Positions 235-54,857 of a DNA stretch of 64,000 bases are shown here, one piece after another. Numbering within the stretch: the first letter of the stretch is position 1; every line of letters starts with the position of its first letter. The DNA lies in the NCBI RefSeq assembly GCF_021278025.1, contig NZ_JAIBHJ010000003.1, positions 1 to 64,000 of the forward strand, given 5' to 3'. The stretch is from Motilimonas sp. E26 (GTDB lineage Bacteria; Pseudomonadota; Gammaproteobacteria; Enterobacterales; CBDFNC01). Under the pieces are notes generated by a model. It was not told where the DNA came from. It saw only the letters and a program-made list of their open reading frames with translations, and did not search any database. A program made the position numbers and the translations under genes.

Positions 235-287
235 AGTGGGGCTGTTTGATGATTAGGCTTGTTTTGCAAATAATGGCATAAAATTGT

Positions 288-445
288 ACCCATCAAGACT
301 GCAGGGCTCATTCAGGTGCTGCCATTGACTTTTTACATGGATTCAATGAATTAGATGTCACAGTGGGCAATAAAGATATATCTATCAATTAAAATGAGTT
401 AGGATTTTATGTTTTTGTGATATTGGGGGCTAGTGGGTGAGGCAA
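288..445 (+). repeat. About 150-bp direct repeat, copy A
   Basis: This segment aligns along its length with 5659-5811. Shared blocks, in order, are ACCCATCAAG, ATTCAATG, CTATCAATTAAAATGAGTTA, TTTTTGTGATATTGG and GTGGGTGAGGCAA. In copy B the first block is still inside vgrG coding sequence, so the repeat begins at a vgrG breakpoint. No coding frame is conserved across it. It probably marks a duplication or recombination boundary of the module. Confidence 0.75.
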
Positions 446-496
446 GTTACTCGTTAAGGCAAGCTTTCACTGCCCGCTATGTTGACGAGAGCAATC

Positions 497-1609: not shown

Positions 1610-1650
1610 CAAGAGCCCTTAATGAAGGAGGTTATGCAAAGTGCGGGCCG

Positions 1651-1720
1651 GTAGGAGCTGTATTTATACAGCGAAGCAGCGTGTTGAGGGTGGATTTTTC
1701 GCGATAAAAGAATCGCTCCT
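1651..1720. repeat. REP-like palindrome, family 1 (GTAGGAGC...GCTCCT)
   Basis: The left arm is GTAGGAGCTGTATTTATACA, itself a small palindrome, followed by GCGAAGCAGCG. The right arm is TTCGCGATAAAAGAATCGCTCCT. The same architecture recurs at 5888-5960, 6961-7070 and 57612-57695. This is typical of dispersed REP/BIME elements mobilised by RAYT transposases. Confidence 0.7.
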
Positions 1721-1753
1721 GATTTTGGTGGGTGTCCAACCTTTCCTCAGGAG

Positions 1754-2113
1754 TTGGTCGCCACTGATGAATTAGACAGTTATGACCGCGATTATAAAGT
1801 TAAAACACCGGCCGTGATCACCCAAGGGTGGTTAGATACCGATAATGGCACCGAATTTTTTCTTGCCGTGTCATGTTTAGGGCTAAATTTTGTTAACAAG
1901 GTGGATTTAGCGGTAAGGTATCGCTTTGAAGTAACAGAAAAGCTACTTGATTTTACAACCAAAGAAGAAATTGCCACTGTGATCAGTTTTCCTGCACAAG
2001 AGCCCACTGCGGATGATTTGGACTGGCTCTCTGAAAGTGAACAAAAAAATCAAGGGTATTTTATTTATCGTCGCTTGGAGCCTCAAAAGCATGACATTTT
2101 ATTAACGATTTAG
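1754..2113 (+). pseudogene. Probable 3' remnant of an unrecognised gene directly upstream of a paralogue
   Basis: A frame of about 119 residues starts only at TTG 1754 and ends 11 bases before the next gene. Upstream it stays open into the REP-like palindrome, back to about 1688, which suggests the palindrome replaced the 5' part. The protein is acidic with no membrane segment and ends E-S-E-Q-K-N-Q-G-Y-F-I-Y-R-R-L-E-P. I do not recognise it. It could be a short intact gene or the tail of an effector once paired with the gene at 2125. Confidence 0.4.
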
Positions 2114-2124
2114 GCTGATTAAAC

Positions 2125-3405
2125 ATGTTAGATGAACACTACAGTGCCACCGCATGGCAACAAGATAAAGCAAACCAAGTTAAACGGCCAGAAACAGGAT
2201 TGCGTTACGCCACTTGGAGCAAAGGGAGTATCAAGCTGCCTTGGTCACAGCACTATGCTAATGTTGAACCATATCACCAGCTATCATTTGGAGTTAACAA
2301 CTCTAAAAGGATAGGTGCAGGTGAAATCGGCTGGAACCATTCTCGCCTTCAATACACAGATTATAAAGGCTTCACTTCTTTTTTAATGAACTTATTGGGT
2401 GGAGGGTATGTTTATGCTTTATTGGGAGTACTTTATCTTCTTTCAGGTTTCTTGTTATATTTTAGCAACTATGAAGATCCTACTCCTCCAAATTTAACGG
2501 ATTTACTTATAACATTTAGCATTGTCTGTTTTGGCGTTAGTTGCCGCATTTTGTTTTCTTACTTAGAAAAACACCCCGAATGGTTTGCTACCGATAATGG
2601 CGATGGCTTTTTCCGCCAAACTGGCATGGTCAAGGTAAAAAAACGCTTTGGTTTAGTCAGTTACCCTTTTACCGATTTTGATGCCTTTGTCGATTTACAT
2701 GTAGATACCACCTCAGGGCAAATTTATACCAATCTGGCCGTGGTACACCGCAATCAAAAGGCGGTGTTTTATCTTAACTTAGCCGGTGAGTTGCAGGCTA
2801 CGCCGCAGCAGCATTACCTTTGTTGGGAAATGTTGCAACGTTTTATGGATGTCAGCCAGCCGCTGCCCGATATTCCCCAGCTTGAGCCCTTTAGGCCGTT
2901 AGACGCGACTACCGCTGCTCATGATAAGGCCACAGGCCGCAAAGCGGATAAATGGAAAAAAATGTCACCGAAATGGTTTGAGCAACGCGTGGCCAAGAAA
3001 TTAAAAAAAGAGCAGACTCGCTTTAATTGGGAAGACATCCCCGACTTATTTGATCAGCAAACTCAGCAGCAAAAGCAGCAACAAGCCCTAAAAGCCGAGC
3101 AAGAGGCAGCAGCCTTAAAAAGCGGCAAGGTAAAGCGCTGTCCAAGCTGTAAAGAGCTGGTTGCCAAGCTGGCAGCAAGCTGTGAGCATTGCGGTTATCA
3201 AATAAACCAATACGACGCCAGCCAGTTTGTGATGACACTACACCAAGCTATCAATATGGGTGATTGGGCGATGGCCAAGCAGCACCTCGAGCAAGGCGCC
3301 GATGCTAATGGGGTTGACCCTAAAGGTCATACGCCGTTACAGATTGCAACTAAACGTGGTGATCAGTTAATCATTTCACTGTTATGTGATTACGGTGGCA
3401 AATAA
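2125..3405 (+). CDS. Membrane paralogue fused to a zinc ribbon and ankyrin-type repeats
   Basis: 426 residues. A soluble N-terminus leads to two hydrophobic segments at about residues 88-112 and 127-146, then the family core (F-A-T-D-N-G-D-G-F-F-R, later W-E-M-L-Q-R-F-M-D-V and Q-P-L-P-D-I-P). After residue 275 the protein departs from its paralogues. It has a basic, Gln-rich probable coiled coil (about 285-335), a four-cysteine zinc ribbon (C-P-S-C ... C-E-H-C, about 340-357), and an ankyrin-type segment with L-E-Q-G-A-D-A-N-G and G-H-T-P-L-Q-I-A. The neighbouring copies lack all of these. The ankyrin region may bind a partner protein, which is inference. Confidence 0.75.
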   Translation: MLDEHYSATAWQQDKANQVKRPETGLRYATWSKGSIKLPWSQHYANVEPYHQLSFGVNNSKRIGAGEIGWNHSRLQYTDYKGFTSFLMNLLGGGYVYALLGVLYLLSGFLLYFSNYEDPTPPNLTDLLITFSIVCFGVSCRILFSYLEKHPEWFATDNGDGFFRQTGMVKVKKRFGLVSYPFTDFDAFVDLHVDTTSGQIYTNLAVVHRNQKAVFYLNLAGELQATPQQHYLCWEMLQRFMDVSQPLPDIPQLEPFRPLDATTAAHDKATGRKADKWKKMSPKWFEQRVAKKLKKEQTRFNWEDIPDLFDQQTQQQKQQQALKAEQEAAALKSGKVKRCPSCKELVAKLAASCEHCGYQINQYDASQFVMTLHQAINMGDWAMAKQHLEQGADANGVDPKGHTPLQIATKRGDQLIISLLCDYGGK

Positions 3406-3450
3406 CATGTGGGTAAATACACATTAGATCCGCTATGTGAGGCGTGTTGA

Positions 3451-3573
3451 ATCGACAAGCTGATTGACGTTTTCATTCACCCTGCAAGCCAAGTGCACGG
3501 CATCACCAGTGCGTTAGCTTTTTGCCGTGCCCGTCAGGACGAGATAGTAAAGTATGTCATTGTATTCAAATGA
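3451..3573 (+). pseudogene. Short gene tail overlapping the start of the broken paralogue
   Basis: A 40-codon open stretch after a stop at 3448 reads I-D-K-L-I-D-V-F-I-H-P-A-S and ends K-Y-V-I-V-F-K. It runs 20 bases past the ATG of the gene at 3554 in another frame. It has no start codon or ribosome site and looks like the 3' end of a former upstream, translationally coupled gene. I do not recognise the family. Chance remains possible at this length. Confidence 0.35.
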
Positions 3574-4119
3574 AAGCTATAAATCTGAATTTGCCAAAAG
3601 CTTGGCTCTAAATAAACCAACGCAGCTTGCTGAAACCTTGCAAAAGACCCGAAAGTTATATGCTGGTATACCTCGTAACTGGCTAAATAAAGAAAGTCTT
3701 GAAGAATTCATTAGAGAGGGGATGTAGATGAAGAAACGCTCAAGGAAGCACGTGAGGCCCCCATGTGTTTTGATCATGAGTATCTTAAAGTCCAGGCATT
3801 AGAGAAAAGGCGCGGCTTATATTATGTGCTGTTGACTCTTACAGGAATTGGGCGACTAGGTAGTGTTCATTTATTGCCAATTCTTATCGCTGTTTGGATG
3901 TACATGGGATACTTGTCATACTCAATGGGTGATGGCTATTGGATTGTTGTTGACAGCAGACAAGATGCCACCACAAGACGTTTTGATGAGCGCTCTGGAC
4001 GCAACCCAAGATACTGGCGGGAGCTGAGTAAAGATCAAATAGAAGACGTATTATCACAACAGGATAAGTTAAATGAAGCCGTTTATCTTGCTCGTCTAAA
4101 CCAGCTCAATGTGGCCTAA
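3554..4119 (+). pseudogene. Broken T6SS-associated membrane paralogue (frameshift plus internal deletion)
   Basis: The first frame (3554-3727, 57 residues, ending E-F-I-R-E-G-M) matches the N-terminus of the gene at 4322: the Y-x-S-E/D spacing, then N-K-P-T-Q-L-A and P-R-N-W-L-N-K-E-S-L-E-E. It stops just after a GGGG run. The other frame takes over (D-V-D-E-E-T-L) and runs to 4119 with one hydrophobic segment and the family ending G-R-N-P-R-Y-W-R-E-L-S. About 130 residues, covering the second membrane segment and the W-N-F-I-Q region, are missing compared with the gene at 4322. Loss of one G in the run explains the frameshift. Confidence 0.7.
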
Positions 4120-4322
4120 CGCTAGAAGGTGAGCCTGTTTATTTGCTTATTAGTGGCCGTGTTTTCGTTTTTCCGGCTCCTACGCCAGATAATCCAATGC
4201 GTTATGATTATTTAAACCCAGAGCAAAACAACCCAGAGTTTGATAGCGTAACTTTCATCGGTAAACATGAATACTGGTTAAAGTCAGAGGATTTTCGCCC
4301 AGCAAAAACGAAGGAGACTTAA
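4113..4322 (+). pseudogene. Gene tail directly coupled to the following paralogue
   Basis: An open frame of about 69 codons reads L-E-G-E-P-V-Y-L-L-I-S-G-R-V-F-V-F-P and ends with a TAA whose last A is the first base of the ATG at 4322. It has no start codon of its own, being open into the preceding pseudogene. The tight stop-start overlap is typical of co-translated partners, so this is probably the 3' end of the gene once paired with the next one. Family unknown. Confidence 0.4.
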
Positions 4323-5296
4323 TGTTTAAACAAATTAACCAGTACAGCCCTAAGGCTTATCGCGCTGACCAGGCTGCGAATTTAGCGATTAGCCAGCCAA
4401 CTCGTTTTGCTCAGCCGCTACAGAAAAGTGCAAGGTTAACGAAGGCCATCCCTGAAAAATGGCTAAATCAAGAAATACTAGAGGAATGTCAGCAACTTGA
4501 TAAACAGTTGCTAACTGAGTCCGTCGATGAGGAAGAGTATCGCACCAGTGAAATGCGCTTTGATTCAGAAGTGTTGCGTCTGCCAAGTTTTGGCCGCTTT
4601 GGTTTATTGCAGCAATTACTGACACTATTTTGGGGGGTAGGAAAAGTGGGGACTTATGCCTTTCCCCCTTTGTCTATTTTTGCGGCTTTAGGGTGGGGGG
4701 CAACCGCCTATTCGGCTGGAGACCCCTTTTGGAACCACTTTCTTGAATCGCTGTTTATTACAAATACCATGATGACTTTACCTTGTTTTATCGCTTTCCA
4801 AGGTGTTCCGCTATTTGAAAAATACCTTGGCCCCAAAATATACGGCGACATGAAAACTGAATATGAGTTTAATCGTGTTACCGGTCGAGTGAAAATCTTT
4901 GATGATAAGTCGGGTGAGTTACTGCACGACTTTCCTTTTAGTGAATGCGTGGCAGAAACGTGGGCGCAAGCGGGGCATCAAGGCGTGGTGGTTAAAAACA
5001 CCTTAAATATTCGCCATTATCAAGATCCTAAGGCCTGCATTGAAGGCGGCCGTATCGGCGACGAATATCGCCTTGCCGATACTTATGCAACGTGGAACTT
5101 TATTCAGTGTTACATGGACACCGGCCAGCCACTGCCCGATATCCCTGCGTTAGAGATGTGGCGCCAAAGCGATCCTGCCAGCATCGCCAGTGATGCCCAA
5201 AGCGGGCGCAACCCCAGATATTGGCGCGATATGAGTATGGATGAAGCCGAGCAAGTGTTTGCAGCGCAAAGTTTACTGAATTATCAGTTGGCTTGA
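4322..5296 (+). CDS. T6SS-associated membrane protein paralogue (DUF6708-like)
   Basis: 324 residues. The N-terminus carries the shared Y-S-P-K-A-Y-R-A-D-Q-A motif and K-W-L-N-Q-E. Two hydrophobic stretches (about residues 95-125 and 136-160) form the membrane anchor. The core has Y-E-F-N-R-V-T-G-R-V-K and the C-terminus T-W-N-F-I-Q-C-Y-M-D, P-L-P-D-I-P and G-R-N-P-R-Y-W-R-D-M-S. The start overlaps the stop of the preceding gene tail, preceded by AAGGAG, so ATG 4322 is well supported. The closest complete relative here is 5990-6955. An orphan immunity function is plausible from context but unproven. Confidence 0.75.
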   Translation: MFKQINQYSPKAYRADQAANLAISQPTRFAQPLQKSARLTKAIPEKWLNQEILEECQQLDKQLLTESVDEEEYRTSEMRFDSEVLRLPSFGRFGLLQQLLTLFWGVGKVGTYAFPPLSIFAALGWGATAYSAGDPFWNHFLESLFITNTMMTLPCFIAFQGVPLFEKYLGPKIYGDMKTEYEFNRVTGRVKIFDDKSGELLHDFPFSECVAETWAQAGHQGVVVKNTLNIRHYQDPKACIEGGRIGDEYRLADTYATWNFIQCYMDTGQPLPDIPALEMWRQSDPASIASDAQSGRNPRYWRDMSMDEAEQVFAAQSLLNYQLA

Positions 5297-5341
5297 GTAT
5301 AAACGAGCAAGAAAAAGGTGGCCAATAAACGCTAAGCCGAT

Positions 5342-5713
5342 TTGGGCAATGGCGACCCTGATGTACATCATACTTTTTATCGGCTTGAATTAGTGCCCAG
5401 CGCTGCGCGTTTAACCCTACGCCAAAACAGCCGCATTTTTCAGCAGCAAGATGCCTTGAGCATTATCAGTATTTTACTGCAAGAAATGGGCATCACCGAT
5501 TATGCCTTTGCGTGTCAGCAGGCGTGTGCGGTGCGCGAGTATTGTGTGCAATACCGAGAAACGGATCTGGCGTTTATCGAGCGTTTAGCCGCCGAAGAAG
5601 GCTTGTTTTATTACTTTGAGCACCATGCAGATAAACATGTGATGGTGTTTAGTGATCATACCCATCAAGTCTGTAGATCTCGTTCAGGATGCTGTCATTG
5701 TCTTTTTTCATGA
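5342..5713 (+). pseudogene. vgrG: Internal fragment of vgrG (T6SS spike protein)
   Basis: About 110 residues match the gp27-like hub of VgrG: F-Y-R-L-E-L-V-P, R-L-T-L-R-Q-N-S-R-I-F-Q-Q-Q, L-L-Q-E-M-G-I, then Y-C-V-Q-Y-R-E-T-D-L-A-F and E-E-G-L-F-Y-Y-F-E-H. Full VgrG proteins exceed 600 residues. The piece corresponds roughly to residues 90-200 and lacks the N-terminus, the gp5 needle and any effector extension. Homology stops near 5668, exactly where the 150-bp repeat begins. Only a TTG could start this frame, so it is not a functional gene. Confidence 0.85.
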
Positions 5714-5811
5714 ATTCAATGTATTAGCTACTATGATTTGCAATAGCGATATAACTATCAATTAAAATGAGTTATAGTTTCACTTTTTTGTGATATTGGT
5801 GGGTGAGGCAA
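5659..5811 (+). repeat. About 150-bp direct repeat, copy B
   Basis: Second copy of the element at 288-445. Its first bases overlap the end of the vgrG fragment. The rest is AT-rich and non-coding, ending GTGGGTGAGGCAA. The same junction sequence on both sides of the array suggests a duplication or recombination point. Confidence 0.75.
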
Positions 5812-5887
5812 TGAGCATGCAAAATGCTGGTGGATTTTGATGGGTGCCCAGTCTTTGCCAAGTTTGCCTAAACTGGAGTGGGGCCAG

Positions 5888-5960
5888 GTAGGAGCGCAAT
5901 TTATTGCGCGAAACAGCGCGTGAAATGTTTGATTATTCGCGGTTTAAAAACCGCTCCTAC
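5888..5960. repeat. REP-like palindrome, family 1 (best-preserved copy)
   Basis: It begins GTAGGAGCGCAATTTATTGC and ends GGTTTAAAAACCGCTCCTAC, so the outer eight bases are exact inverted repeats. Each arm contains its own small palindrome, and GCGAAACAGCG and TTCGCG lie between them. It occupies the leader of the gene at 5990. It could act as an RNA stem-loop but has no U-run. Confidence 0.8.
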
Positions 5961-5989
5961 AGTATCGCGAAGAATGTTTAGGTTAAATA

Positions 5990-6955
5990 ATGAGCAGTGA
6001 AAATAGCATTTTTAGTTACGAACCCAGCGCTTATCGCAGCGAACAAGCCCAAGAGTTATATTTGGCTAAACCATCCCATCGCGCCATGGTGCTCAATAAA
6101 AGCCAAGAGCTATGGGATGTGTTTCCCCCTAACGCCCTCGACAGTCATGAAGTGGACGATCTCTTTGTTGAAGATAAAAAAGGCGGCCCTAAATTTTCAG
6201 ATAAGCAAATAGAGCGTTTTGATGCTGAAATGATCCGCTATCCCACCTTAGGTAAGATCAACGATAAGATCTTTTTTGTGTTACTGGCTGGAAGTGTAGG
6301 AGCGATAAAGCTAGCTATGATTGCATTATTTTTTACTTTATTAGCAGGAGTCGTCTCTGGACTAGCAACTGAAAGTTTTTGGCCTAGATTTTGGCTTTAT
6401 GTTGATCACACATTCATGTATTTTGTTTTACCATTTATCGTTTCTGCAGTTATTTGCACCCCGATACTGCTTTTTTGCATCAAGAAATTCGCTAAACATG
6501 TTAAACCCCATTTTGAGTTAAATCGCCGCACTGGGCGGGTAAAGCAGTGGTGTAAAAAAACCAATAAATTACTTTACGATGTGGCGTTTAAAGATTGCGT
6601 TGCCGAAACCATTAACATCTCAACCCATCAAGGCATCACGGATTACCACCAAGTGTTTTTGCGCTGCACCACCGAGCCCAAATTAAAGATAGATATTGCA
6701 CTATTTGGTGATAATAAACTGGGCCATGACGTCACGGCCATCTGGAATTTTATTCAGCGTTATATGGACACCTCACGCCCATTGCCCGACGTGCCCACCT
6801 TTGAAATGAGCCGCCACCTTGATCCCGTCAGCGCAGCCCATGACAAAAAGATCCAGCGCAACCCCAGATATTGGCGCGACATGGCCCTAAAAGATCTGTA
6901 CGAGCAAAAAGCGCAATTGATCCAAGCAGTAAGAGCCTTGCCCAAGTTTGCTTAG
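5990..6955 (+). CDS. T6SS-associated membrane protein paralogue (DUF6708-like)
   Basis: 321 residues. The start ATG is preceded by a weak AGGTTAAATA. The N-terminal Y-E-P-S-A-Y-R-S-E-Q-A aligns with Y-S-P-K-A-Y-R-A-D-Q-A of the gene at 4322. Two strong hydrophobic segments lie at about residues 98-125 and 135-162. The core has F-E-L-N-R-R-T-G-R-V-K-Q-W, then I-W-N-F-I-Q-R-Y-M-D, P-L-P-D-V-P and R-N-P-R-Y-W-R-D-M. It is bracketed by REP-like palindromes and follows the vgrG fragment, where effector or immunity genes normally sit. Orphan immunity protein is the favoured but unproven reading. Confidence 0.75.
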   Translation: MSSENSIFSYEPSAYRSEQAQELYLAKPSHRAMVLNKSQELWDVFPPNALDSHEVDDLFVEDKKGGPKFSDKQIERFDAEMIRYPTLGKINDKIFFVLLAGSVGAIKLAMIALFFTLLAGVVSGLATESFWPRFWLYVDHTFMYFVLPFIVSAVICTPILLFCIKKFAKHVKPHFELNRRTGRVKQWCKKTNKLLYDVAFKDCVAETINISTHQGITDYHQVFLRCTTEPKLKIDIALFGDNKLGHDVTAIWNFIQRYMDTSRPLPDVPTFEMSRHLDPVSAAHDKKIQRNPRYWRDMALKDLYEQKAQLIQAVRALPKFA

Positions 6956-6960
6956 CTGGC

Positions 6961-7070
6961 CGCGTGTTTATTCGCGATTTAAAAATCGCTCCTACTGGAA
7001 TGAGGATGGGTAGGAGCGCAATTTATTGCGCGAAACAGCGTGTGAATGGTTTAAAAACCGCTCCCGCGGA
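6961..7070. repeat. REP-like elements, family 1: a right arm followed by a nearly full copy
   Basis: TTCGCGATTTAAAAATCGCTCCTAC (6971-6995) is an isolated right arm. GTAGGAGCGCAATTTATTGC starts a second copy at 7010 whose right arm has drifted to GCTCCCGCGG by 7070. The region follows the stop of the gene at 6955, so transcripts of that gene would end in these hairpins. Confidence 0.7.
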
Positions 7071-7159
7071 ATCGCGTCGCACGCTTATAGGGACAGGTCT
7101 TGCTTTTTGCCTTATTGGCTGGGGGGGGGTTAGTTTTATGCTAGGCCATTTTTGTTTAG

Positions 7160-7340
7160 GTAGGAGCATGAGCAGACCATTACGTATTGAATATGCGGGT
7201 AGCTATTAGGGGAATATTGATGACATCCCATAGCGACAGCGTAGAGTAATGTTTATTTGCAGGATTATGAAACAATGGCAGCTAACCGAAATGATGCCAC
7301 TATCTTGGCGTTTTCCAGTGGTGGGTATTATCAAAAATAG
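7160..7340 (+). pseudogene. Remnant of a REP-associated tyrosine transposase (RAYT)
   Basis: GTAGGAGC (7160-7167) is followed immediately by an ATG reading M-S-R-P-L-R-I-E-Y-A-G-S-Y and then a stop. This is the classic N-terminus of Y1-type RAYT proteins. Further on (7275-7340) M-A-A-N-R-N-D-A-T-I-L-A-F-S-S-G-G-Y resembles the C-terminal R-N-x-A-I...G-A/G-Y end of the same family. The catalytic H-x-H and Tyr regions are gone. The repeat half-site against the start codon suggests this was the partner transposase of REP family 1. Confidence 0.6.
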
Positions 7341-7585
7341 CTAGGGGAGGACTTTGGTCTATATTATTCCCGAGTTAGCCTCATAGTGGCAAAACACAAG
7401 GCCTGATCCTGATGGTACAAATGGTAACTCTGGTCAGCTGGATGTTTGCAAGCAGTCGGTTTATAAAAGAGAGGCGTATAGCAGAATTGTTAAGTAGCGC
7501 TATACCGCGCATAAAAAATAATGTGAATGTTTTTGTGGGAATACGCTTCTTTTGAGGGAGCTGGCTTTCAAATAAAGGGATTATC
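7341..7585. other. Intergenic stretch without recognisable content
   Basis: I see no conserved gene, repeat copy or clear terminator. It holds the promoter region of the gene at 7586. AAAGGGATT lies about nine bases before that gene's ATG and may be its ribosome site. Confidence 0.4.
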
Positions 7586-8314
7586 ATGGAAAAAGTAGAT
7601 TGTATCGAATGTAGAGTTAAAATTTTACCAACAACCGCTCAAAAAACTGGTGGAAAATGTATGCCTTGTTTTAAAGGCAAGCGAAAAAATAGTTTTGCAA
7701 ATGTTCCCGATTCGCGACGAGTAGACACTCATTCATTTCTAGACAGCTTGTCTTTCGCCACTGGTGTACCTAGAAATTCACTTGGTTTAACGGAACCTTT
7801 AATCAGCGAATCACCAACGTATCTTTTGCCAAAAGGAACCTTTAATAAAATCAAGGGAGAAGAAGCTTTTCAAAGGTTATTAAAACAAAGCTCTGATCAC
7901 GCGAATACTCTATCCTTTACGCCTGATTATAATAAATCGCACACTAAAGAGTTACTTCAAGCTTTTGCTCTAGTTGATCTTATTTGTGAAGTTTCTAGTG
8001 GTGGCATTTACCAATATTTTTGTAGCGCATTTAATGTGGCAGATGCATTAATAGGGTTCAAGCGGGTTGCAAATGACGATAATTTCAAATTGTTTACTTA
8101 TGCTGTCGGTTGTGCAAAGCGAAAACGCAGCCTTCCAATATTTGATTATCGAGACACTCCTCAAATCAAAGAATGTAAGGCTAATAAGGATTTTAAAGAC
8201 TTAGACATTAATGGTGATTTTAATGAATTAGAGAGGTTTATTGAAAATGAACTTCCAGTCATGCTCGGAAATGATTTACATGAAAATAAATTACGTTACC
8301 AAGAAGGCTATTAA
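7586..8314 (+). CDS. Zinc-ribbon protein with a DMP19-like (DUF4375) domain
   Basis: 242 residues. The N-terminus has C-I-E-C, then I-L-P-T-T-A-Q-K-T-G-G-K, then C-M-P-C (residues 7-28), a small zinc ribbon seen on SMI1- and DUF4375-type proteins. The region around residues 130-165 (S-S-G-G-I-Y-Q-Y-F-C-S-A-F followed by A-D-A-L-I-G-F) fits the DMP19-like core, a fold often found in immunity or DNA-mimic-type proteins. No signal peptide or membrane segment. It stands alone beside the T6SS-like locus. Cytosolic immunity or defence accessory is possible but only inference. Confidence 0.65.
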   Translation: MEKVDCIECRVKILPTTAQKTGGKCMPCFKGKRKNSFANVPDSRRVDTHSFLDSLSFATGVPRNSLGLTEPLISESPTYLLPKGTFNKIKGEEAFQRLLKQSSDHANTLSFTPDYNKSHTKELLQAFALVDLICEVSSGGIYQYFCSAFNVADALIGFKRVANDDNFKLFTYAVGCAKRKRSLPIFDYRDTPQIKECKANKDFKDLDINGDFNELERFIENELPVMLGNDLHENKLRYQEGY

Positions 8315-8429
8315 GGTGATTGAATAAATATTGCAAAACAGTAGTTTATAGCTTGTCTTACTACAGGTTGTAACCCAATCTTTTGTTCTGTGGCGCGGCG
8401 TAATGCCATAACAATAGAGGAGAGTAAAG

Positions 8430-8807
8430 ATGAAAGTTAAAAGGTTATTAACGAATATCTGCACTGAAAATTTGTCAGCATCAAAGGCATTTTATACCTC
8501 GTTGTTTGACTTTTCGATAGATTATGACAGTGATTGGTTTGTTCATTTAATCTCACAAGGGGGAGAATTAGAAGTTGGATTAATATCGCAAGAAAGTGAT
8601 GTTGTTCCCAAAAGTGTTGGCTGCAAGCCTAGCGGGATCTATCTTACAATTGTTGTTGAATCTGTGACCGTTGTTTACGAAAAGGCTTGTCAGTTAAATG
8701 TTCGAGTTGAACAACCACCTAAATCTACACCTTACGGACAAAAAAGAATGTTAATTTTGTCACCAGAAGGAGTAACCATCGACGTATCATCGCCAGATAG
8801 TGCATAA
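8430..8807 (+). CDS. VOC-superfamily (glyoxalase/bleomycin-resistance fold) protein
   Basis: 125 residues with the usual opening of a VOC domain (N-I-C-T-E-N-L-S-A-S-K-A-F-Y-T-S-L-F-D-F) and ending (G-Q-K-R-M-L-I-L-S-P-E-G-V-T-I-D-V). AGAGGAGAG upstream supports ATG 8430. Such single-domain proteins bind a metal and small substrates or antibiotics. The expected ligand positions are incomplete here, so no substrate can be named. It lies among unrelated small accessory genes with separate intergenic regions. Confidence 0.75.
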   Translation: MKVKRLLTNICTENLSASKAFYTSLFDFSIDYDSDWFVHLISQGGELEVGLISQESDVVPKSVGCKPSGIYLTIVVESVTVVYEKACQLNVRVEQPPKSTPYGQKRMLILSPEGVTIDVSSPDSA

Positions 8808-8920
8808 CAAAATACTCCAGCCGCCAACGTAGCTTTTGCAGTATATTGCAAAAACGACCCACATTGCTTTGCAGCAGATTGGGACGCTAATTGTGTTGGG
8901 GTAAGTCTGAGGAAACTATC

Positions 8921-9412
8921 GTGTTAGGGAAAAATATAAATGCTTGCATACCGGCCTATAAAAAGGCATTAGCTAGTGGTGAAATCCAGAAAACGTATCA
9001 AAGCCTCGTGGGAATAGTTCAAACCTTAAGGAGTGAGTTTCATAAAACCTATAAAGGTGAATTTTCAATTGCGAATGTACTCCATGGTTATATCGATTTT
9101 ACTTACTTTTATTTGCAAAATGATTATCTTAAAAAGAACAAGCTTAAACTGGCTCTCGTACTTAATCATCAAAAGGTCTGCTTTGAAATTTGGCTGCTGG
9201 GGCAAACAAAGGATGTTCAAAAAGGTTACTGGGAGAAGTTGAAGGGGGTGCAATGGCTGAACGAAGAGTCAATGCCAGAATGGTCAATTTTTGAAATTGT
9301 AATGCTTGCTGATCCTGATTTCGAAAATCCTGAGAAACTATCAGAGTCTATTCACGGTTTATTTAGAGCTCTGTCAAAGGAGATTTTTGACACGCTAAAA
9401 GCATACGAGTAG
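8921..9412 (+). CDS. DUF7000-family protein
   Basis: 163 residues from GTG 8921, preceded by CTGAGGAA at good spacing; a TTG at 8891 in the same frame has no ribosome site. Conserved features are Y-K-K-A-L-A-S-G-E-I-Q-K-T-Y, V-Q-T-L-R-S-E-F, Y-I-D-F-T-Y-F-Y and V-C-F-E-I-W-L-L-G, followed by a Trp-rich segment. The family, recognised from memory, has no established function. Soluble and cytosolic. Third of three unlinked-looking accessory genes. Confidence 0.65.
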   Translation: MLGKNINACIPAYKKALASGEIQKTYQSLVGIVQTLRSEFHKTYKGEFSIANVLHGYIDFTYFYLQNDYLKKNKLKLALVLNHQKVCFEIWLLGQTKDVQKGYWEKLKGVQWLNEESMPEWSIFEIVMLADPDFENPEKLSESIHGLFRALSKEIFDTLKAYE

Positions 9413-9518
9413 TAGCATATAACCAAGCAATCACGGTATTGTTGTTATAGCTGATATAGCTGCAATGGTCGCAGGGGCAATTTTGTTCTCGCAAAGTAGG
9501 TTGAAAAATAGGCCAATG

Positions 9519-9573: not shown

Positions 9574-10953
9574 TTAAGCTGACTTAGCTTGATGCGGGTT
9601 GCGGGTATCTGCATCTTCAGGCAAATTTCTCATCAGTAATGCAAATTCTAGCTCGATATCACTTGGTAATGGAATGTAAACAATATGGCCTGAGCCTTTG
9701 GCGTCATCAATGGCTTCTCCTTTGCGGTTTTGCATTTGTTCTAACGTGAAAGTGATATTGCCTTTGGGCGTCATTAATTCCATGCTGTCACCCAACAAAA
9801 ACTTATTTTTCACGGTCACTTCAACTAAGCCTGTTTCGGCATGGCGGCCAGTGATTTCACCGACAAATTGTTGATGGGTACTAACAGAGTAGCCATAGTC
9901 GTAGTTTTGATATTCGCTGTGGTTATGGCGGCGTAAGAAGCCTTCAGTGTAACCGCGGTGAGCCAAGCTTTCTAAGGTGCCTTTCAAGTTTTGATCAAAC
10001 GGGCGACCCGCTACGGCATCATCAATGGCTTGCTTATAAATTTGCGCGGTGCGGGCGCAGTAATAGAAACTTTTAGTGCGACCTTCTATTTTTAATGAGT
10101 GCACGCCCATTTGCGTTAAACGCTCAACATGCTCAATGGCGCGTAAATCTTTTGAATTCATAATGTATGTGCCGTGTTCATCTTCAAACGCTGGCATGTA
10201 TTCACCTGGACGGCCTTGCTCTTGTAGCAGCACGACTTGATCCGTTGGCTGACCTTCCCCTAATGTTGGCGCGACTTTTTCTGGTGTGTAGATTTCTGGT
10301 TGTACCGCGACAATATCGCCTACTTCGTTTTCTTTGGCTTCATGAGTGTCGTATTTCCAGCGGCAAGAATTGGTGCAGGTGCCTTGGTTAGGATCGCGTT
10401 TGTTGATGTAGCCAGAGAGCAGGCAGCGCCCTGAATAAGCCATGCACAATGCGCCATGCACAAACACTTCAAGCTCCATTTCTGGTGCGTGCTCGCGGAT
10501 ATCTTCAATTTCTTCTAGGGATAACTCACGTGACAGAATAACGCGTTCAACCCCTTGTTGCTGCCAAAATTTCACCGTTGCCCAGTTAACCGCATTGGCT
10601 TGCACCGATAGGTGAATAGGCATTTGCGGAAAGTGTTCACGTACCATCATGATAAGGCCGGGATCAGACATAATTAACGCATCAGGCCCCATATCAACCA
10701 CTGGCTTCATATCACGAATAAAGGTTTTTAACTTTGAGTTGTGGGGCTGAATATTACACACCACATAAAACTTCTTACCTAAGGCGTGGGCTTCATTAAT
10801 GCCTATTTGAAGGTTTTCATGATTAAATTCGTTGTTACGTACACGTAGTGAGTAACGTGGCTGACCCGCGTAAACGGCGTCTGCGCCATAAGCAAAGGCG
10901 TAACGCATGTTTTTTAGGGTACCAGCAGGGGAAAGCAGTTCAGGTTTAAACAT
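9574..10953 (-). CDS. trhP: tRNA 5-hydroxyuridine synthesis protein TrhP (YegQ), peptidase U32 family
   Basis: 459 residues, close to the 453 of E. coli. TrhP introduces 5-hydroxyuridine at position 34 of tRNAs in a prephenate-dependent reaction. The U32 opening P-E-L-L-S-P-A-G and the signature E-V-F-V-H-G-A-L-C-M-A-Y-S-G-R-C are present. Cys170, Cys177, Cys193 and Cys197 (C...C...G-T-C-T-N-S-C) are the probable Fe-S ligands. The insert at about 210-260 and the C-terminal beta domain are intact. Monocistronic on the minus strand, with an FNR-type palindrome about 130 bases upstream of the start. Confidence 0.9.
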   Translation of the reverse strand: MFKPELLSPAGTLKNMRYAFAYGADAVYAGQPRYSLRVRNNEFNHENLQIGINEAHALGKKFYVVCNIQPHNSKLKTFIRDMKPVVDMGPDALIMSDPGLIMMVREHFPQMPIHLSVQANAVNWATVKFWQQQGVERVILSRELSLEEIEDIREHAPEMELEVFVHGALCMAYSGRCLLSGYINKRDPNQGTCTNSCRWKYDTHEAKENEVGDIVAVQPEIYTPEKVAPTLGEGQPTDQVVLLQEQGRPGEYMPAFEDEHGTYIMNSKDLRAIEHVERLTQMGVHSLKIEGRTKSFYYCARTAQIYKQAIDDAVAGRPFDQNLKGTLESLAHRGYTEGFLRRHNHSEYQNYDYGYSVSTHQQFVGEITGRHAETGLVEVTVKNKFLLGDSMELMTPKGNITFTLEQMQNRKGEAIDDAKGSGHIVYIPLPSDIELEFALLMRNLPEDADTRNPHQAKSA

Positions 10954-49094: not shown

Positions 49095-49109
49095 ATTATT
49101 TCTAAGAGA

Positions 49110-49187
49110 AAGACAAAGACAGGGCACCCTCCTAAATTTGACCAAGAAAGACAGGAAGAAAGACAGGACACCCTCCTAAATTTGAAG
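49110..49187 (+). repeat. REP family 2: two direct copies upstream of the transposase
   Basis: Two copies of the motif AAAGACAGG-CACCCTCCTAAATTTG (49110-49140 and 49160-49187), about 50 bases apart. The core CACCCTCCTAAATTTG recurs in altered form at 50452-50623 and 51544-51573. Confidence 0.8.
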
Positions 49188-49242
49188 CCTATCACATCTT
49201 GCGCCATAGTTAAGTGACCATCTATCAAGCTGGATAAAGGTT

Positions 49243-50244
49243 ATGACACTACCGCGCAAGCAGCTTATTTGCCCAGAATCGACCCCTTATTATCATGTTA
49301 CTAGCCGCTGTGTACGCCGCGCTTTTCTGTGTGGCGTTGACCGCTACACACAGCAAAGTTACGAGCACCGCAAGCCTTGGGTGGTGGATAAGGTAAAGCA
49401 ACTAGCTAGCATCTTCACCATCAATATTTGTGCCTATGCCATTATGAGCAATCATTACCACCTGATTTTGCATATTGATACCAAGCGTAACCGCGACTTA
49501 ACTGATGCTGAGGTGGCCTATCGCTGGCAGCAATTATTCGCTTTGCCATTATTGGTGGGTGATTGGTTAGCCGAGAAACCACAAAACAGTGCTGAAAAGG
49601 TGGTGGTTAGTGAGTGTATTGCCAAATGGCGTGGCAGACTGATGGACATCAGCTGGTTTATGCGCTGCCTTAATGAAGATATCGCACGCAAGGCCAATAA
49701 AGAAGACGGCTGTAAGGGCCACTTCTGGGAAAGCCGCTTTAAAAGCCAAGCATTACTGGATGAAAAAGCGCTGCTGACTTGCATGGCCTATGTTGACCTG
49801 AACCCGATTCGCGCAGGTATGTGTCAGACGGTTGAAGAGCAAGAGTTCACTTCAATACAAGCGCGTTTACAGCAATGGCATGCCAATCATCACAACGCGG
49901 AAACCAGCCCAAGCAAAACCCAGTTACTCCCCTTTGAAAAGCAATTCGACACTCAACAACCCACCGAAATCCCTTACTATTTCGAAGAATATTTACACCT
50001 TGTTGACTGGACGGGTCGCGCCATTCGCGATGATAAGCGCGGTTTTATCCCCGCCAACCAACCTAAGCTGTTGCAAAGCTTGGGCATTGAGCAAGAAATT
50101 TGGTTACATTTGGTGAAAGATTTTAGTCGCAGCTTTGGCAGTGCAGCAGGTAGCTGGGAAGCATTGACTCATCACAGTGAGTTCGCGGGCCATTGTTGGT
50201 CTCGCGGTCAGGTTGCTTGCCACCAACTGAGTGGTTACGGCTAA
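49243..50244 (+). CDS. REP-associated tyrosine transposase (RAYT, Y1/HUH type)
   Basis: 333 residues. Single-stranded-DNA transposase of the IS200-like Y1 family. The start Y-Y-H-V-T-S-R-C-V-R-R-A-F-L, the metal site S-N-H-Y-H-L-I-L-H (near 70), G-H-F-W-E-S-R-F-K-S-Q-A and A-Y-V-D-L-N-P-I-R-A-G with the catalytic Tyr (near 187) are all intact, so it may be active. Repeats of REP family 2 flank it on both sides. The family is domesticated in many proteobacteria, where it spreads REP elements. Confidence 0.88.
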   Translation: MTLPRKQLICPESTPYYHVTSRCVRRAFLCGVDRYTQQSYEHRKPWVVDKVKQLASIFTINICAYAIMSNHYHLILHIDTKRNRDLTDAEVAYRWQQLFALPLLVGDWLAEKPQNSAEKVVVSECIAKWRGRLMDISWFMRCLNEDIARKANKEDGCKGHFWESRFKSQALLDEKALLTCMAYVDLNPIRAGMCQTVEEQEFTSIQARLQQWHANHHNAETSPSKTQLLPFEKQFDTQQPTEIPYYFEEYLHLVDWTGRAIRDDKRGFIPANQPKLLQSLGIEQEIWLHLVKDFSRSFGSAAGSWEALTHHSEFAGHCWSRGQVACHQLSGYG

Positions 50245-50451
50245 GCCATACTCATTAATTTATCGTTTGATATCAAATGCTTTGAATAAGTAGGTTTTGG
50301 TGCGCCGATATTTCAGATAATATACATTTGTTCGCTTATGTTGAACGCTTATGTTGAACGCTTAGGTGCTTGCTCGCATCGCTTATGATTAGAAAGAAGC
50401 GGCTTTTTGACAGCGCTATAAGTTCAATTGGGCGGGTAAAGTTGGTCAGTT
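50245..50451. other. Intergenic stretch after the transposase
   Basis: TTATGTTGAACGC occurs twice in tandem (50337 and 50349, 12-base period). No gene is visible. Confidence 0.4.
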
Positions 50452-50623
50452 TTTAAGAGGGTGTCCAGTATTTATTCTGTATTTATTCCTGGTAATTCAA
50501 AGCCCCATTTTACTACAGCGGCAATAATGCCTTGGGCACCAAGGGCGGCGGCAAAGGCAGGACACCCTCTTAAACTTGAAGCTGGCCGTGGAGAAGTTGC
50601 TCTGCATTTAAGAGGGTGTCCAG
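50452..50623. repeat. REP family 2: three alternating inverted copies
   Basis: TTTAAGAGGGTGTCC (about 50453-50467), GGACACCCTCTTAAA (50560-50574) and TTTAAGAGGGTGTCC (50608-50622) alternate in orientation, giving two overlapping 15-base perfect inverted repeats. The first pair encloses the copied ybbP fragment. This is the BIME-like arrangement produced by RAYT activity. Confidence 0.82.
50491..50558. pseudogene. 68-bp copy of an internal piece of ybbP
   Basis: This segment matches 51833-51900 at about 62 of 68 bases. Most differences are transitions. The source lies within the C-terminal coding region of the minus-strand ybbP gene, 1.3 kb away. The copy sits between inverted REP family 2 elements. 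Confidence 0.82.
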
Positions 50624-50695
50624 TTCGTCGTTTCGGAAGATGACGTGTAAAACGGTGTTATAACAAACAAGAATAGGTGTCGCGCAGCCGACACT

Positions 50696-51091
50696 CCAGC
50701 CAAGCGGTCAAACAAGCTCAACACTTGGATGCCACAACTGAAACGCAAACTGATGGGATACCGAAATTACTTTGGCTTGCCTGACAACTGTTTCAGCCTC
50801 GATAAACTGTAGACTTATCTGCTGCACAGTCTGTATAAATGGCTGAATAGGTGAAGTGGTAGGTGCAGTTAAAATTGTTTTATTTTCAATGAGATATTGA
50901 TGTATTTCGCGATGGAAAGGCCAAGGGTGTGTAAGCGATTTATTCATGTAGACTGGTACTGGGTGCGTGTTGATTTACACGCGTGAATATATAACTGAAG
51001 AGCCCAAAAGCTCGATGCGGTCTTGTGTTTTAAATGAAGCGCACGTCCGGATCTGTGTGGGGTAGGCCCAGTAGTGGGTCGCTCTACCACG
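50696..51091 (+). pseudogene. Decayed 3' end of a group II intron (maturase tail and domains V-VI)
   Basis: The protein remnant (from about 50696) reads W-M-P-Q-L-K-R-K-L-M-G-Y-R-N-Y-F-G-L-P, then a stop, then L-H-S-L-Y-K-W-L-N-R: the C-terminal part of group II maturases. The end (about 51000-51090) has the domain V-like GATGCGG ... CGCACGTCCGGATCTGTG, with an insertion between the halves, and a domain VI-like hairpin GGTAGGCCCA...TGGGTCGCTCTACC. The 5' intron and the reverse-transcriptase core are missing. Confidence 0.7.
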
Positions 51092-51119
51092 ATTGAGTAA
51101 TGCCAATATTGAGGTTTCA

Positions 51120-51509
51120 ATGGTAACTGGAAGTTGTTTGTGCGGTAATGTTAAATATGAAATATCCGGTGAAGTCGGCGATATAGTTCATTGTCACTGT
51201 AAAACCTGTCGTAAAGCTCATGGTTCTGCATTCTCAAGTATTGCAGGTGTTAAAGATTCAGATTTTAAGTTGGTAGGTGATGTAAAATTAGGTTGTTATG
51301 AATCGTCTCCTGGCAAAAACAGATATTTCTGTCCAAATTGCGCTACTCAAATATACGCAAAAAAGGATGGTACTAAGCATATAGTTTTACGCTTGGGTTC
51401 ATTAGATGATGATCTTAAATCTAAAGAACTCAATCATATTTGGGTTTCTCAAAAAGCGAATTGGTATACGTTAAATAGCAACCTACCAGAGTACCTTGAA
51501 TTCGAGTAA
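51120..51509 (+). CDS. GFA-family (glutathione-dependent formaldehyde-activating enzyme-like) zinc protein
   Basis: 129 residues from ATG 51120 (GAGG six bases upstream); the in-frame TTG at 51093 lies in the intron remnant. Zinc-binding cysteines are G-S-C-L-C-G, H-C-H-C-K-T-C-R-K-A-H-G, and F-C-P-N-C-A-T-Q-I-Y. Despite the name, most members have no proven reaction. It begins just beyond the intron's 3' end, and base composition is more AT-rich than in the neighbouring core genes, consistent with acquisition. Confidence 0.83.
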   Translation: MVTGSCLCGNVKYEISGEVGDIVHCHCKTCRKAHGSAFSSIAGVKDSDFKLVGDVKLGCYESSPGKNRYFCPNCATQIYAKKDGTKHIVLRLGSLDDDLKSKELNHIWVSQKANWYTLNSNLPEYLEFE

Positions 51510-51543: not shown

Positions 51544-51573
51544 GAGAAAGGCAGCCCTTAAACTTGAAGCTGC
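51544..51573 (+). repeat. REP family 2, degenerate copy
   Basis: AGAAAGGCAGCCCTTAAACTTGAAGCTG shares the CTTAAACTTGAAG end with the copy at 50569-50583. The following 100 bases form an AT-moderate stretch with no supported gene. Confidence 0.6.
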
Positions 51574-51679
51574 AGCGGTGTTGGCTATGCTCGTTCACCG
51601 CAATCACAAAGTTTATCTATGCTCATGGCATCACTCACTTGCCGCTTACCTGCAACTCCAAATAGTTTGGGTATGTAAG

Positions 51680-51720: not shown

Positions 51721-54189
51721 TTACGCCCGCAATGGCGCCAGCAGTTGTCTAAACATGCTTAAGGTGATCACGTAGATCAAGGCAAGCGCCAACAGCGGCA
51801 GGGTAATAAACAGGTAGAAGTGCGGTTGCACCGGCAATTCAAAGCCCCATTTTACCACGGCGGCAATAATGCCTTGGGCGCCAAGGGCGGCGGTAAAGCC
51901 TGCTATTAATGCCATTAAACCGTACTCGGCCCACAAGGTGGCGCTAATGCGTTTTTTGCTGGCGCCGAGGGTGCGATAAAGTTTTATCTCTTGCTGGCGT
52001 TGCGACACACTTAAGCGCAGTAAAGTAAGCACTAACAACAAACCACTTAACACCGCTAATGCCGCTAATACGGTGAGTGACCAAGCGACTTGCTGGAGCA
52101 AGGATTGGATCCTTGTGGCCATGCTGCGTAAATCTAACAAGCTCACGGTAGCGTAATCACGCGCTAACTGATTCAGTAGGCCAGTTTGTTGGTCATCAAT
52201 ACGAAAACTAACTAGCCAAGTGGTAGGCAAATCGGCCATCACATCAGGGCTGAATATAAAGTAAAAGTTCGGCTTCATATTGCGCCATTCTACTTTGCGA
52301 ATGCTGTTTACTTTGGCACTAAAGCTTTGACTGTTAACACTGAAATGCAGTGTGTCACCGAGCTTTATGTTGAGCCGCTTGGCAATATCTTGCTCAACGG
52401 ACACGCCACGCTCTGTGCTCCATTTACCCTCAAGCACTTCATTATGACTCGGCAGTTGCTGCAGCCAAGTAAAGTTCAGCTCGCGGCGCAGTGCGGAGTC
52501 TTTTTCCTTGTCTGCTTCAGTTTCTGGTTTAGCCGCCACCGATGCCGATACCGACTGCAACACTTCATCGTTGCGCTGAGTTAAGCGGCCGCGGATCACT
52601 GGGTAAGCTTGTGAGTGATCCAACTGCCATTGGTCCAGTTGATTAATATAAGCGTTAACTTGGTTAGGGGCGATGTTAATGGCAAACACGTTGGGCGCAT
52701 TGGCGGGCAAGGTTTGTTGCCAGTCATTAAGTAAATCACTGCGCAGTAGCCAAATAACACTTAAAAGCATCAGTGAGCAGGTGAGGGCGCCTAACTGCGC
52801 CATGCTGGCAATGCGGCTACGATTTAAGCGGCTTAAAGCCAGCGTAACGGCTGGCCCCCAACGTTTTTGCTGCAACAGTTTAGTGATGAGTAAACCCAGT
52901 GCGCCTAATAGCACTAGGATCACCGCTAGCCCGACGAGGGTTAGCCACATCATTTTATTGTTACCAAACCAAACGATTAAGCTGATCAAAGGCAACAGCA
53001 ACAAAGAGTAAGCCCAATACTGCTTTTTAGTTGGCGCGTCTTGGCCGATGATAGAAGTGGCCGGCGTGGCCAGCAAATGCAATAAACTAATGCCCATGCT
53101 TGGTAGGCCAACTAACAGCGCAATGCCGATACTCACCAGCCATGGACTAAAGCCGATACTAGGAAGTGGATCGGGCAGTAAATCCGTCAGTGGCAGGCGT
53201 AATAGTTGCTCAAGTAAAAAACCACAGCTAATGCCAATAGCAATGGAGAGGCCAAATAACATCGCCAACTGACCCGCTAACCAACGTCTTAGCCAAGCTT
53301 GACTCGCGCCTAAACTTTTCAGCATGGCCACGGTGCTTTGTTGACTATTACGGTAATGTTGACTGGTCAGCACCAGTGTGGCCGACGCCATCAGCAGCAC
53401 TAACAATAAGGTAAGAGATAGGTATTGCTGCGCCTTGTTAATAAATTCAGCGCTGCGACCTTGGCTTTGTTCGCTCAACCAGCGCTGACTGGCGGTAATG
53501 CTTATTTCCTGTTGTAGCTGGTTTAATGCGCTATCTGGACCGGAAAAATACGCGCGATAGCTTAATCGCCCACCCGGCACCACAGCGCCCGTTTTGGCAA
53601 TATCATCCAAGTGGATAATGGCGCTCGGCATTTGATTGAACGGGTTAAACGACAGCTCTGGGTCTTCCGCTATTTTCCCTGATACTGTTAGCTCAGCATC
53701 GCCAATCGCGACGGTGTCGCCGATGCGAACGTCTAACAAATTAAACAGCCTTTCTGCTAACCACAATTCATTGGGCTGCACATGCTGGCGCATGGTAAGG
53801 TTTTTTTCATTGGCTGTTAAAGGGCTGGCATCGAGTTGTAACTCACCGCGTAGCGGGTAGTTGGTTTCCATTGCCTTTAAACTGATCAGTTGCATGCCAT
53901 TGTCACTAAACGCCATGGTGCGAATGCGCGTTTGCTGACTAATGGTTAAGCCAAGCTTCTTCGCGCTGGCTAAGGTGTCGGGCGAAATAGGTTGTTGGTT
54001 TGATACCAGCACTAAGTCGGCGCCAAGGGCGCTGCGACCTTGGTCAACCATGATTTTATCAACTCGCGTTACCAGTGCAGATAGCGCGAAGACACAGGCA
54101 ATAATTAAACTTAAGGCAAGGGTGATCGGCCAAAGCTGGCCTTGCCAGCATTCACGCCAGCGCCATTTTAACAGCAGATTATTTTTCAT
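51721..54189 (-). CDS. ybbP: ABC transporter permease YbbP (FtsX/MacB-like)
   Basis: 822 residues, the E. coli YbbP length. One N-terminal helix (about 20-40), a large periplasmic domain, and FtsX-type helix groups near 255-345, 390-480 and 705-815. It partners the ATPase YbbA in a mechanotransmission-type ABC complex whose cargo is undetermined. Its start overlaps the ybbA stop by four bases. A 68-base piece of its C-terminal coding region is copied at 50491-50558. Confidence 0.88.
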   Translation of the reverse strand: MKNNLLLKWRWRECWQGQLWPITLALSLIIACVFALSALVTRVDKIMVDQGRSALGADLVLVSNQQPISPDTLASAKKLGLTISQQTRIRTMAFSDNGMQLISLKAMETNYPLRGELQLDASPLTANEKNLTMRQHVQPNELWLAERLFNLLDVRIGDTVAIGDAELTVSGKIAEDPELSFNPFNQMPSAIIHLDDIAKTGAVVPGGRLSYRAYFSGPDSALNQLQQEISITASQRWLSEQSQGRSAEFINKAQQYLSLTLLLVLLMASATLVLTSQHYRNSQQSTVAMLKSLGASQAWLRRWLAGQLAMLFGLSIAIGISCGFLLEQLLRLPLTDLLPDPLPSIGFSPWLVSIGIALLVGLPSMGISLLHLLATPATSIIGQDAPTKKQYWAYSLLLLPLISLIVWFGNNKMMWLTLVGLAVILVLLGALGLLITKLLQQKRWGPAVTLALSRLNRSRIASMAQLGALTCSLMLLSVIWLLRSDLLNDWQQTLPANAPNVFAINIAPNQVNAYINQLDQWQLDHSQAYPVIRGRLTQRNDEVLQSVSASVAAKPETEADKEKDSALRRELNFTWLQQLPSHNEVLEGKWSTERGVSVEQDIAKRLNIKLGDTLHFSVNSQSFSAKVNSIRKVEWRNMKPNFYFIFSPDVMADLPTTWLVSFRIDDQQTGLLNQLARDYATVSLLDLRSMATRIQSLLQQVAWSLTVLAALAVLSGLLLVLTLLRLSVSQRQQEIKLYRTLGASKKRISATLWAEYGLMALIAGFTAALGAQGIIAAVVKWGFELPVQPHFYLFITLPLLALALIYVITLSMFRQLLAPLRA

Positions 54190-54857
54190 GATGCCACCTT
54201 ACCAGCGGCAATTTTTAAGGTGCGATCGCAACGTTCGGCCAAGGTTTGATCGTGAGTGACCAGTACCAACGTAGTACCATGTTCACGGTTTAGTTGAAAC
54301 AGCAACTCGACAATTTTACTGGCCGTTTGTTGGTCTAAGTTTCCGGTTGGCTCATCAGCAAATAAAATTTTCGGCTGGCTAATAAAGGCGCGCGCTAAGG
54401 CAACTCTTTGCTGCTCACCTCCTGACAGTTGTGACGGCAAGTGATGGGCACGTCCCGTTAGTCCAACTTGCTCTAATAATTGGCTAGCACGGGCTACATC
54501 TTGATCTTGGCCTTGGATTAAATAAGGCAACATGACATTTTCGATAGCAGTGAGGGTTGGGATCAGCAAAAAACTTTGAAACACAAAACTAATATGTTCA
54601 CAGCGCAAGGCGGCGCGAGCCTCTTCATCTAATTGCGAAAGAGGTTGGCCGAGTAAACTTATTTCGCCAGCACTGGGCACATCTAGCCCAGCCAATAAGG
54701 TCATTAAGGTGGATTTGCCAGCACCGGATGGGCCCACGAGCGCGATACTTTCGCCTGCGCTAACCTGAAGAGAAACATCTTGCAAAATGGTCAAAGTGTC
54801 GTTAGCTGTGCTAACTTGCTTGACTAGGTGGTCAGCTATAATTACGGGATCAGACAT
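54186..54857 (-). CDS. ybbA: ABC transporter ATPase YbbA
   Basis: 223 residues. Walker A is G-P-S-G-A-G-K-S-T, signature L-S-G-G-E-Q-Q-R-V, Walker B I-L-F-A-D-E-P-T-G-N-L-D, switch V-T-H-D. It belongs to the LolD/MacB group. It is divergent from tesA with start codons overlapping by two bases, the same order as in E. coli. Confidence 0.9.
   Translation of the reverse strand: MSDPVIIADHLVKQVSTANDTLTILQDVSLQVSAGESIALVGPSGAGKSTLMTLLAGLDVPSAGEISLLGQPLSQLDEEARAALRCEHISFVFQSFLLIPTLTAIENVMLPYLIQGQDQDVARASQLLEQVGLTGRAHHLPSQLSGGEQQRVALARAFISQPKILFADEPTGNLDQQTASKIVELLFQLNREHGTTLVLVTHDQTLAERCDRTLKIAAGKVAS

Follow-up and report, generated by a model that had tools for sequence, protein, structure and literature searches.

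Elements built around a TnpAY1 subclass-2.3-type transposase gene carry conserved inverted ends whose outer parts are often repeated outwards in a one-sided stutter, and at one such element in Motilimonas sp. E26 a scrap of the ybbP coding region fits exactly between two ends of this kind. We rate the conserved stuttering ends as the more interesting result and the ybbP scrap as a modest curiosity. We conclude that the scrap is an end-anchored local duplication, without demonstrated movement, and its function is probably nil, if it has any.

Results

The DNA under analysis, here called the window, is a stretch of 64,000 nucleotides (assembly GCF_021278025.1, contig NZ_JAIBHJ010000003.1, positions 1 to 64,000). 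A preliminary description had proposed that a piece of ybbP was copied 1.3 kb away, next to an intact RAYT gene, and both statements were borne out (Table 1). Positions 50491-50556 and 51833-51898 are identical at 61 of 66 nt (92%) and form a direct repeat (D2) with a spacing of 1342 bp. When the 4.6-Mb genome was searched with the scrap, the matches were its own site and ybbP alone (E 4.4e-21), which together with the alignment rules out a chance similarity. The gene that holds the source segment matches the NCBIfam profile ABC_perm_YbbP with an E value of 4e-190, under that profile's curated cut-off. A 211-bp stretch compared with a plasmid and a phage collection for an origin of that kind gave no match in either.

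Table 1. Positions of the transposase element, the ybbP scrap and its source in the window
Feature	Position	Strand	Basis or remark
Outer stuttered part of element left end	49107..49165	+	Degenerate end copy 49122-49136, repeats of AAGAAAGACAGG
RAYT element left end core GGACACCCTCCTAAA	49166..49180	+	Common to sister genome G001
TnpAY1 subclass-2.3-type HUH transposase gene, 333 aa, intact	49243..50244	+	NHYH and YVDLNP motifs
RAYT element right end core TTTAAGAGGGTGTCC	50452..50466	-	Perfect inverted pair with 50560-50574
Right end outer part and one stutter copy (AGTATTTATTC / TGTATTTATTCC)	50467..50488	+	Sequence comparison
ybbP scrap	50489..50556	+	58-nt core 50494-50551
REPIN-like non-autonomous unit, ~70 bp	50553..50624	+	Ends 50560-50574 and 50607-50621; AAAG overlap with scrap
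Intact ybbP-like ABC permease gene	51721..54189	-	ORF and NCBIfam profile
Source segment within ybbP	51833..51898	+ (ybbP gene itself on minus strand)	Sequence alignment

The core of the scrap matches the sister species' ybbP (genome G001) at 58 of 58 positions and differs from the host's own ybbP at three; the two differences private to the scrap lie at its junctions. It is therefore no recent local copy, and the idea of a recent copy of the present ybbP found no support. Since the captured allele is the one now in the sister species, the event is old or took place in a related lineage. From left to right, the right end of the element, its outer part with one stutter copy, the scrap and the REPIN-like unit follow one another. 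The left junction of the scrap falls on the outermost edge of the stuttered right end of the element; the right junction falls on that of the REPIN-like unit's left end, where ybbP and the outer flank of the unit have the microhomology AAAG in common. On the ybbP side, each junction falls at an arbitrary site in the gene.

The inverted 15-mers that had been described as REPs enclosing the scrap are real, as a perfect pair (50452-50466 and 50560-50574) with a third copy at 50607-50621, and the two beside the scrap are the right end of the RAYT-type element and the left end of the REPIN-like unit. They point outwards from the scrap, which therefore sits outside both elements, in the gap that separates them. 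The REPIN-like unit has the short inverted-doublet arrangement of REPs and REPINs, with perfect 15-nt arms and 32 nt between them. The element itself is about 1.3 kb long (49166-50466) and has terminal inverted repeats with the core GGACACCC/GGGTGTCC. The 15-mer GGACACCCTCNTAAA has seven exact sites in the 4.6-Mb genome, which are ends of the ~1.3-kb element and of element relics; with up to two mismatches there are 26 sites, compared with 24 in a reversed control. Counts equal to the control mean that there is no dispersed high-copy REP family, and a genome-wide REP family was accordingly rejected; low copy number and the lack of a hairpin excess speak against REP as a name for the 15-mers.

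The Motilimonas comparison comprised four genomes in all, the host's own and three others. In G001 the element is 95.5% identical and lies between the same chromosomal flanks, and no copy of the scrap was found there although the element is present at the locus; a sister-strain copy lacking REPs, which had been named as evidence against the original reading, was thus not seen. Between these conserved flanks, the region in the host genome and that in G001 are wholly different apart from the element. Neither element nor scrap was found beside ybbP in G002 and G003, where about 250 bp were inspected, and no second mobile copy of the scrap turned up in the host genome or in any of the other three from Motilimonas. 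The transposase ortholog of G001 (C22:167283-168281) has one internal in-frame TGA.

Several features of the surroundings were recorded on the way. Window 51554-51678 matches Rfam RF02818 (V_AS5) with 61.8 bits, under the gathering threshold of 96, and has the look of an ERIC-type repeat; the segment 50467-50488 was also considered as an ERIC remnant, a candidate dropped in favour of an element end plus stutter, the ERIC-like/V_AS5 element being the one at 51554-51678. Window 50660-51090 holds a 39-nt match to a repeat adjoining an IS91-like region of G001; behind this match lies a stretch that, by eye, we take to be a group II intron 3' remnant, ahead of a GFA-family gene (51093-51509). Two ~240-bp repeats, 96% identical, flank the element in G001 (L016 ~6650-6900 and ~8930-9150); by eye we assume them to resemble integron attC sites, and a XerC/IS91-like region is nearby.

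The transposase passes the Pfam Y1_Tnp cut-off narrowly (23.8 bits; cut-off 23) and, at 49.8 bits, does not reach the curated cut-off of 80 for the NCBIfam REP-transposase equivalog NF047646. Its length (333 aa; median 325 aa in the subclass), its HUH motif NHYH and its Y motif YVDLNP are those of TnpAY1 subclass 2.3, an assignment made by comparing protein length and motifs with Table 1 of PMC6006769, whose accessible text likewise gives several diverged copies per genome and Alteromonadales-type hosts. The four Motilimonas genomes hold 19, 15, 5 and 10 matches, many partial and mostly 70-80% identical, and thus several diverged copies each. Two internally deleted copies of the element (L178, own genome G000 C27, 2285-2771 and 3490-4337) have common breakpoints (~619/1071 of the element) with an overlap of ~5 nt.

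The ends are conserved beyond Motilimonas, in many marine bacteria. At the best 80 of 314 confirmed transposase relatives from a contig scan of genomes, loci that are not independent (several come from one genome, and L029 and G001 C22 are one record) and several of which had been inspected before the end motifs were picked, the gene is preceded by the left motif (G[AG]CACCC and variants), at no more than 160 bp, in 72 of 80 cases and followed by the inverted right motif, at no more than 400 bp, in 61 of 80. Reversed-letter controls gave 1/80 for the left and 2/80 for the right motif, and random windows of the same loci 105/1600 and 149/1600. Many of these ends stutter, that is, partial end copies are stacked outwards with a common outer 9-12 nt and a variable length into the element. 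To this count 88 elements were entered (the best 80 of 314 and 8 from Motilimonas), among which 79 left and 65 right ends had the motif and enough flank; the outer 9 nt are repeated within 120 nt at 44 of the 79 left and 33 of the 65 right ends, where shuffles lead one to expect 3.7 and 7.5, respectively, and random genomic positions gave 52/1600. The one fixed boundary of the stutter, just outside the end and in many genomes, suggests a specific cut site. Stutter with the same outer ~12 nt was observed from L029 to L108 (e.g. L030, L073, L081, L090), in many gammaproteobacterial genera. At L049, a 22-nt sequence foreign to the element (TCTTCTGACGAGGCTATTTTTT and variants) precedes three successive right ends, once at a distance of ~130 bp.

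Subterminal hairpins were rejected, there being no hairpin excess at the ends over control stretches (mean folding z -0.33 on the left, control -0.06; -0.01 on the right, control 0.09). For this reason the ends resemble the terminal repeats of TIRtrons more than REPs, and, as in TIRtrons, the terminal inverted repeats around the RAYT-like gene here have no relation to GTAG REPs.

The preliminary description had suggested looking in the genome and its relatives for other REP-enclosed gene fragments, and comparable fragments at element ends were found at L043, L097, L051 and G000 C40/C19 (the rhs, pip, yfhL, T6SS and VgrG labels below, like the attC-like, IS91-like and group II intron labels above, are presumptive, mostly assigned by eye). 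In Shewanella canadensis (L043), positions 5784-5885, just outside a stuttered left end, are an 86% copy of the 3' part of a gene (source 4883-4986), and the colinear locus of a relative (G015) lacks the scrap. In Shewanella sp. (L097), 2445-2683 and 2940-3230 copy 5124-5362 and 5361-5653 at 90-92% identity; in the copy a pip-like gene breaks off after ~20 codons, and the copy abuts the left end at 3235. In Colwellia sp. (L051), a 137-bp copy (5747-5881, from 5525-5661; 86%) has a REPIN-like unit (5668-5726) on one side and the transposase element's left end on the other. Its source lies on the far side of the REPIN-like unit, an arrangement like that in the window. In the host genome, C40 carries at 911-1056 an rhs fragment flanked by a 5' piece of the transposase gene and by a right end, and C19 carries at 54533-54770 a longer version of it with the same junction. 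All of these scraps, that of the window included, are direct copies, and copy and source are ~0.1-2.4 kb apart in all cases but one, the rhs fragment on C19. The proposal that RAYT elements pick up and move nearby DNA thus finds partial support: ends of a RAYT-type element, with an intact transposase gene alongside, do flank the ybbP piece, and comparable scraps occur at ends of the same family. The short distances stand against movement, and the C19 exception is probably part of the same island as the window start.

Long-range mobilisation of the C19 rhs fragment was at first favoured and then dropped. The yfhL-like gene that adjoins the C19 fragment is followed in G001 by ordinary genes without element ends; in the host genome the next of these genes is at window 9574-10953 and has ~9.5 kb of T6SS-type genes ahead of it. 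It follows that the end of C19 and the start of the window probably flank one island, and that the rhs fragment, probably lying in the same T6SS/rhs island as the window start, is no proof of movement. Relative to G001, the probable island (window 1-9500 and G000 C19:54500-55570) lies between the yfhL-like and yegQ-like genes; it contains a further element end at window 1729 and, at 5342-5713, what by eye we take to be a VgrG-like fragment. DNA captured together with ends at an unlinked place was not found for ybbP in the own or the three other Motilimonas genomes, and the C19/C40 rhs fragment probably belongs to one island. At L097, 689-2039 has a left and a right end in the correct orientation without a transposase gene, the left end directly following a truncated IS3-like orfA; it is possibly a cargo-bearing non-autonomous element.

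Local copies are modestly enriched beside ends: a copy of at least 40 nt of sequence elsewhere in the locus was present in 11 of 154 zones beside ends and in 26 of 810 control zones (Fisher p 0.035; L029 left out, window and G001 elements added), with several of the 11 positive zones being cassette-like or other repeats (L064, L106, L107, G001). On inspection, the copies at L062, L066, L100 and L106 were judged repeats or cassette-like and left out of the cases; those at L107 belong to a multi-copy repeat.

Discussion

Our tentative reading, held with a confidence just short of even, is that illegitimate joinings, anchored at TnpAY1 subclass-2.3 element ends, left the scrap behind as their footprint. 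The HUH transposase would nick at the element ends, and a few matching bases could then serve to join the freed end to a nearby break, either on the sister chromosome or on the nascent strand. A partner break inside the same end would yield a short stutter; with a break at a distance of up to ~1-2 kb, neighbouring DNA would be duplicated in tandem, and a later end-anchored deletion might trim the duplicate to a scrap. In the window, the duplication would have joined ybbP, through AAAG, to the left end of the REPIN-like unit, and the deletion would have joined the right end of the element to ybbP. The exact fit of the scrap between two ends, with microhomology, speaks for this reading, as do the ~5-nt overlaps at the breakpoints of internally deleted element copies; scraps and stutter have in common one fixed boundary outside an end, direct orientation and short distance. 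The conserved inverted ends of the family, their stutter and the similar scraps in other genomes also favour it, and E. coli offers a precedent, with 22 of 90 novel junctions at REPs and microhomology at the joints (PMC3161906). Against it stand the need for two events, a duplication and then a deletion, the modest enrichment of local copies beside ends and the small sample of four Motilimonas genomes, and the sister-species allele is explained equally well by gene exchange.

Under gene exchange, the scrap would be what remains of the tail end of ybbP from a sister lineage. Homologous recombination at one side and an illegitimate joining at the other would have brought it in together with neighbouring island DNA, and the elements would only mark the breakpoints. 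We consider this rather unlikely. It accounts for the perfect match of the core to the G001 allele and for a region that, element apart, is wholly different between the conserved flanks in the two genomes; however, both junctions of the scrap lie exactly at element boundaries, and similar scraps found at other ends point to a connection with the element. The scrap may equally carry an ancestral allele, given that at two of the three differing sites ybbP of G002 has the same base as the scrap (hand comparison).

Template switching or break repair could also have filled a gap with nearby sequence while the transposase took no part, the ends being only fragile or repetitive sites. Direct orientation, a distance of ~1 kb and microhomology fit such an event, and in stressed E. 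coli the duplication joints at REP elements are attributed in PMC3161906 to secondary structure and template switching and not to a transposase. For our case this seems distinctly unlikely, as in many genomes the stutter keeps to a single boundary immediately outside the end, and the ends have no excess of hairpins. The model of the preliminary description, in which the transposase took the ybbP piece as cargo, enclosed by ends, and carried it elsewhere, we hold to be highly improbable. The position of the scrap between ends speaks for it, as do the rhs fragment that occurs on both C19 and C40 with an end and the same junction, and the end-bounded segment without transposase at L097, but the ends flanking the scrap point away from it, source and copy adjoin each other, no second mobile copy exists in the four Motilimonas genomes, and the C19 rhs copy is probably in the same T6SS/rhs island.

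The accessible text of the TIRtron/TIRYT study (PMC3733652) describes, as found here, a RAYT-like gene flanked by non-GTAG terminal inverted repeats, possibly in dimers or clusters; its common motif is GGGGWSAS, and ours GRCACCC with end stutter. A short inverted-end doublet beside a HUH transposase gene, like that at window 50553-50624, is also a feature of REPINs and group 2/3 RAYTs in the accessible part of PMC3116915; unlike these, the ends here are not of high copy number, have no GTAG tag and show no hairpin excess. In the accessible text of Quentin et al. 2018 (PMC6006769), the authors found no REP-like sequences flanking TnpAY1 subclass 2.3, whereas we find conserved inverted ends with stutter, though these have no excess of hairpins. 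Our literature search, with figures, supplements and most subscription papers outside it, returned no report of GRCACCC ends or end stutter in subclass 2.3 and none of host gene fragment capture by RAYT-type elements. Helitrons and Pack-type elements hold host gene scraps within or between their ends, as here; unlike in their case, there is no sign that the captured DNA is being mobilised.

The way in which RAYT-type transposases work on DNA has, to our knowledge, yet to be settled. The conserved inverted ends and their one-sided stutter provide a concrete candidate substrate and a predicted cut site for subclass 2.3. It is possible, though doubtful, that enzymes of this subclass have a fixed cleavage point immediately beyond GRCACCC/GGGTGTCY ends and, by cutting there, drive end-anchored duplication, with stacked partial end copies (the stutter) and a kilobase-range trapping of neighbouring gene pieces as its products, a bacterial, HUH-driven form of local fragment capture. 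If true, bacteria would have a way, linked to a transposase, of duplicating DNA locally and shuffling gene fragments, comparable in outcome to capture by eukaryotic Helitrons.
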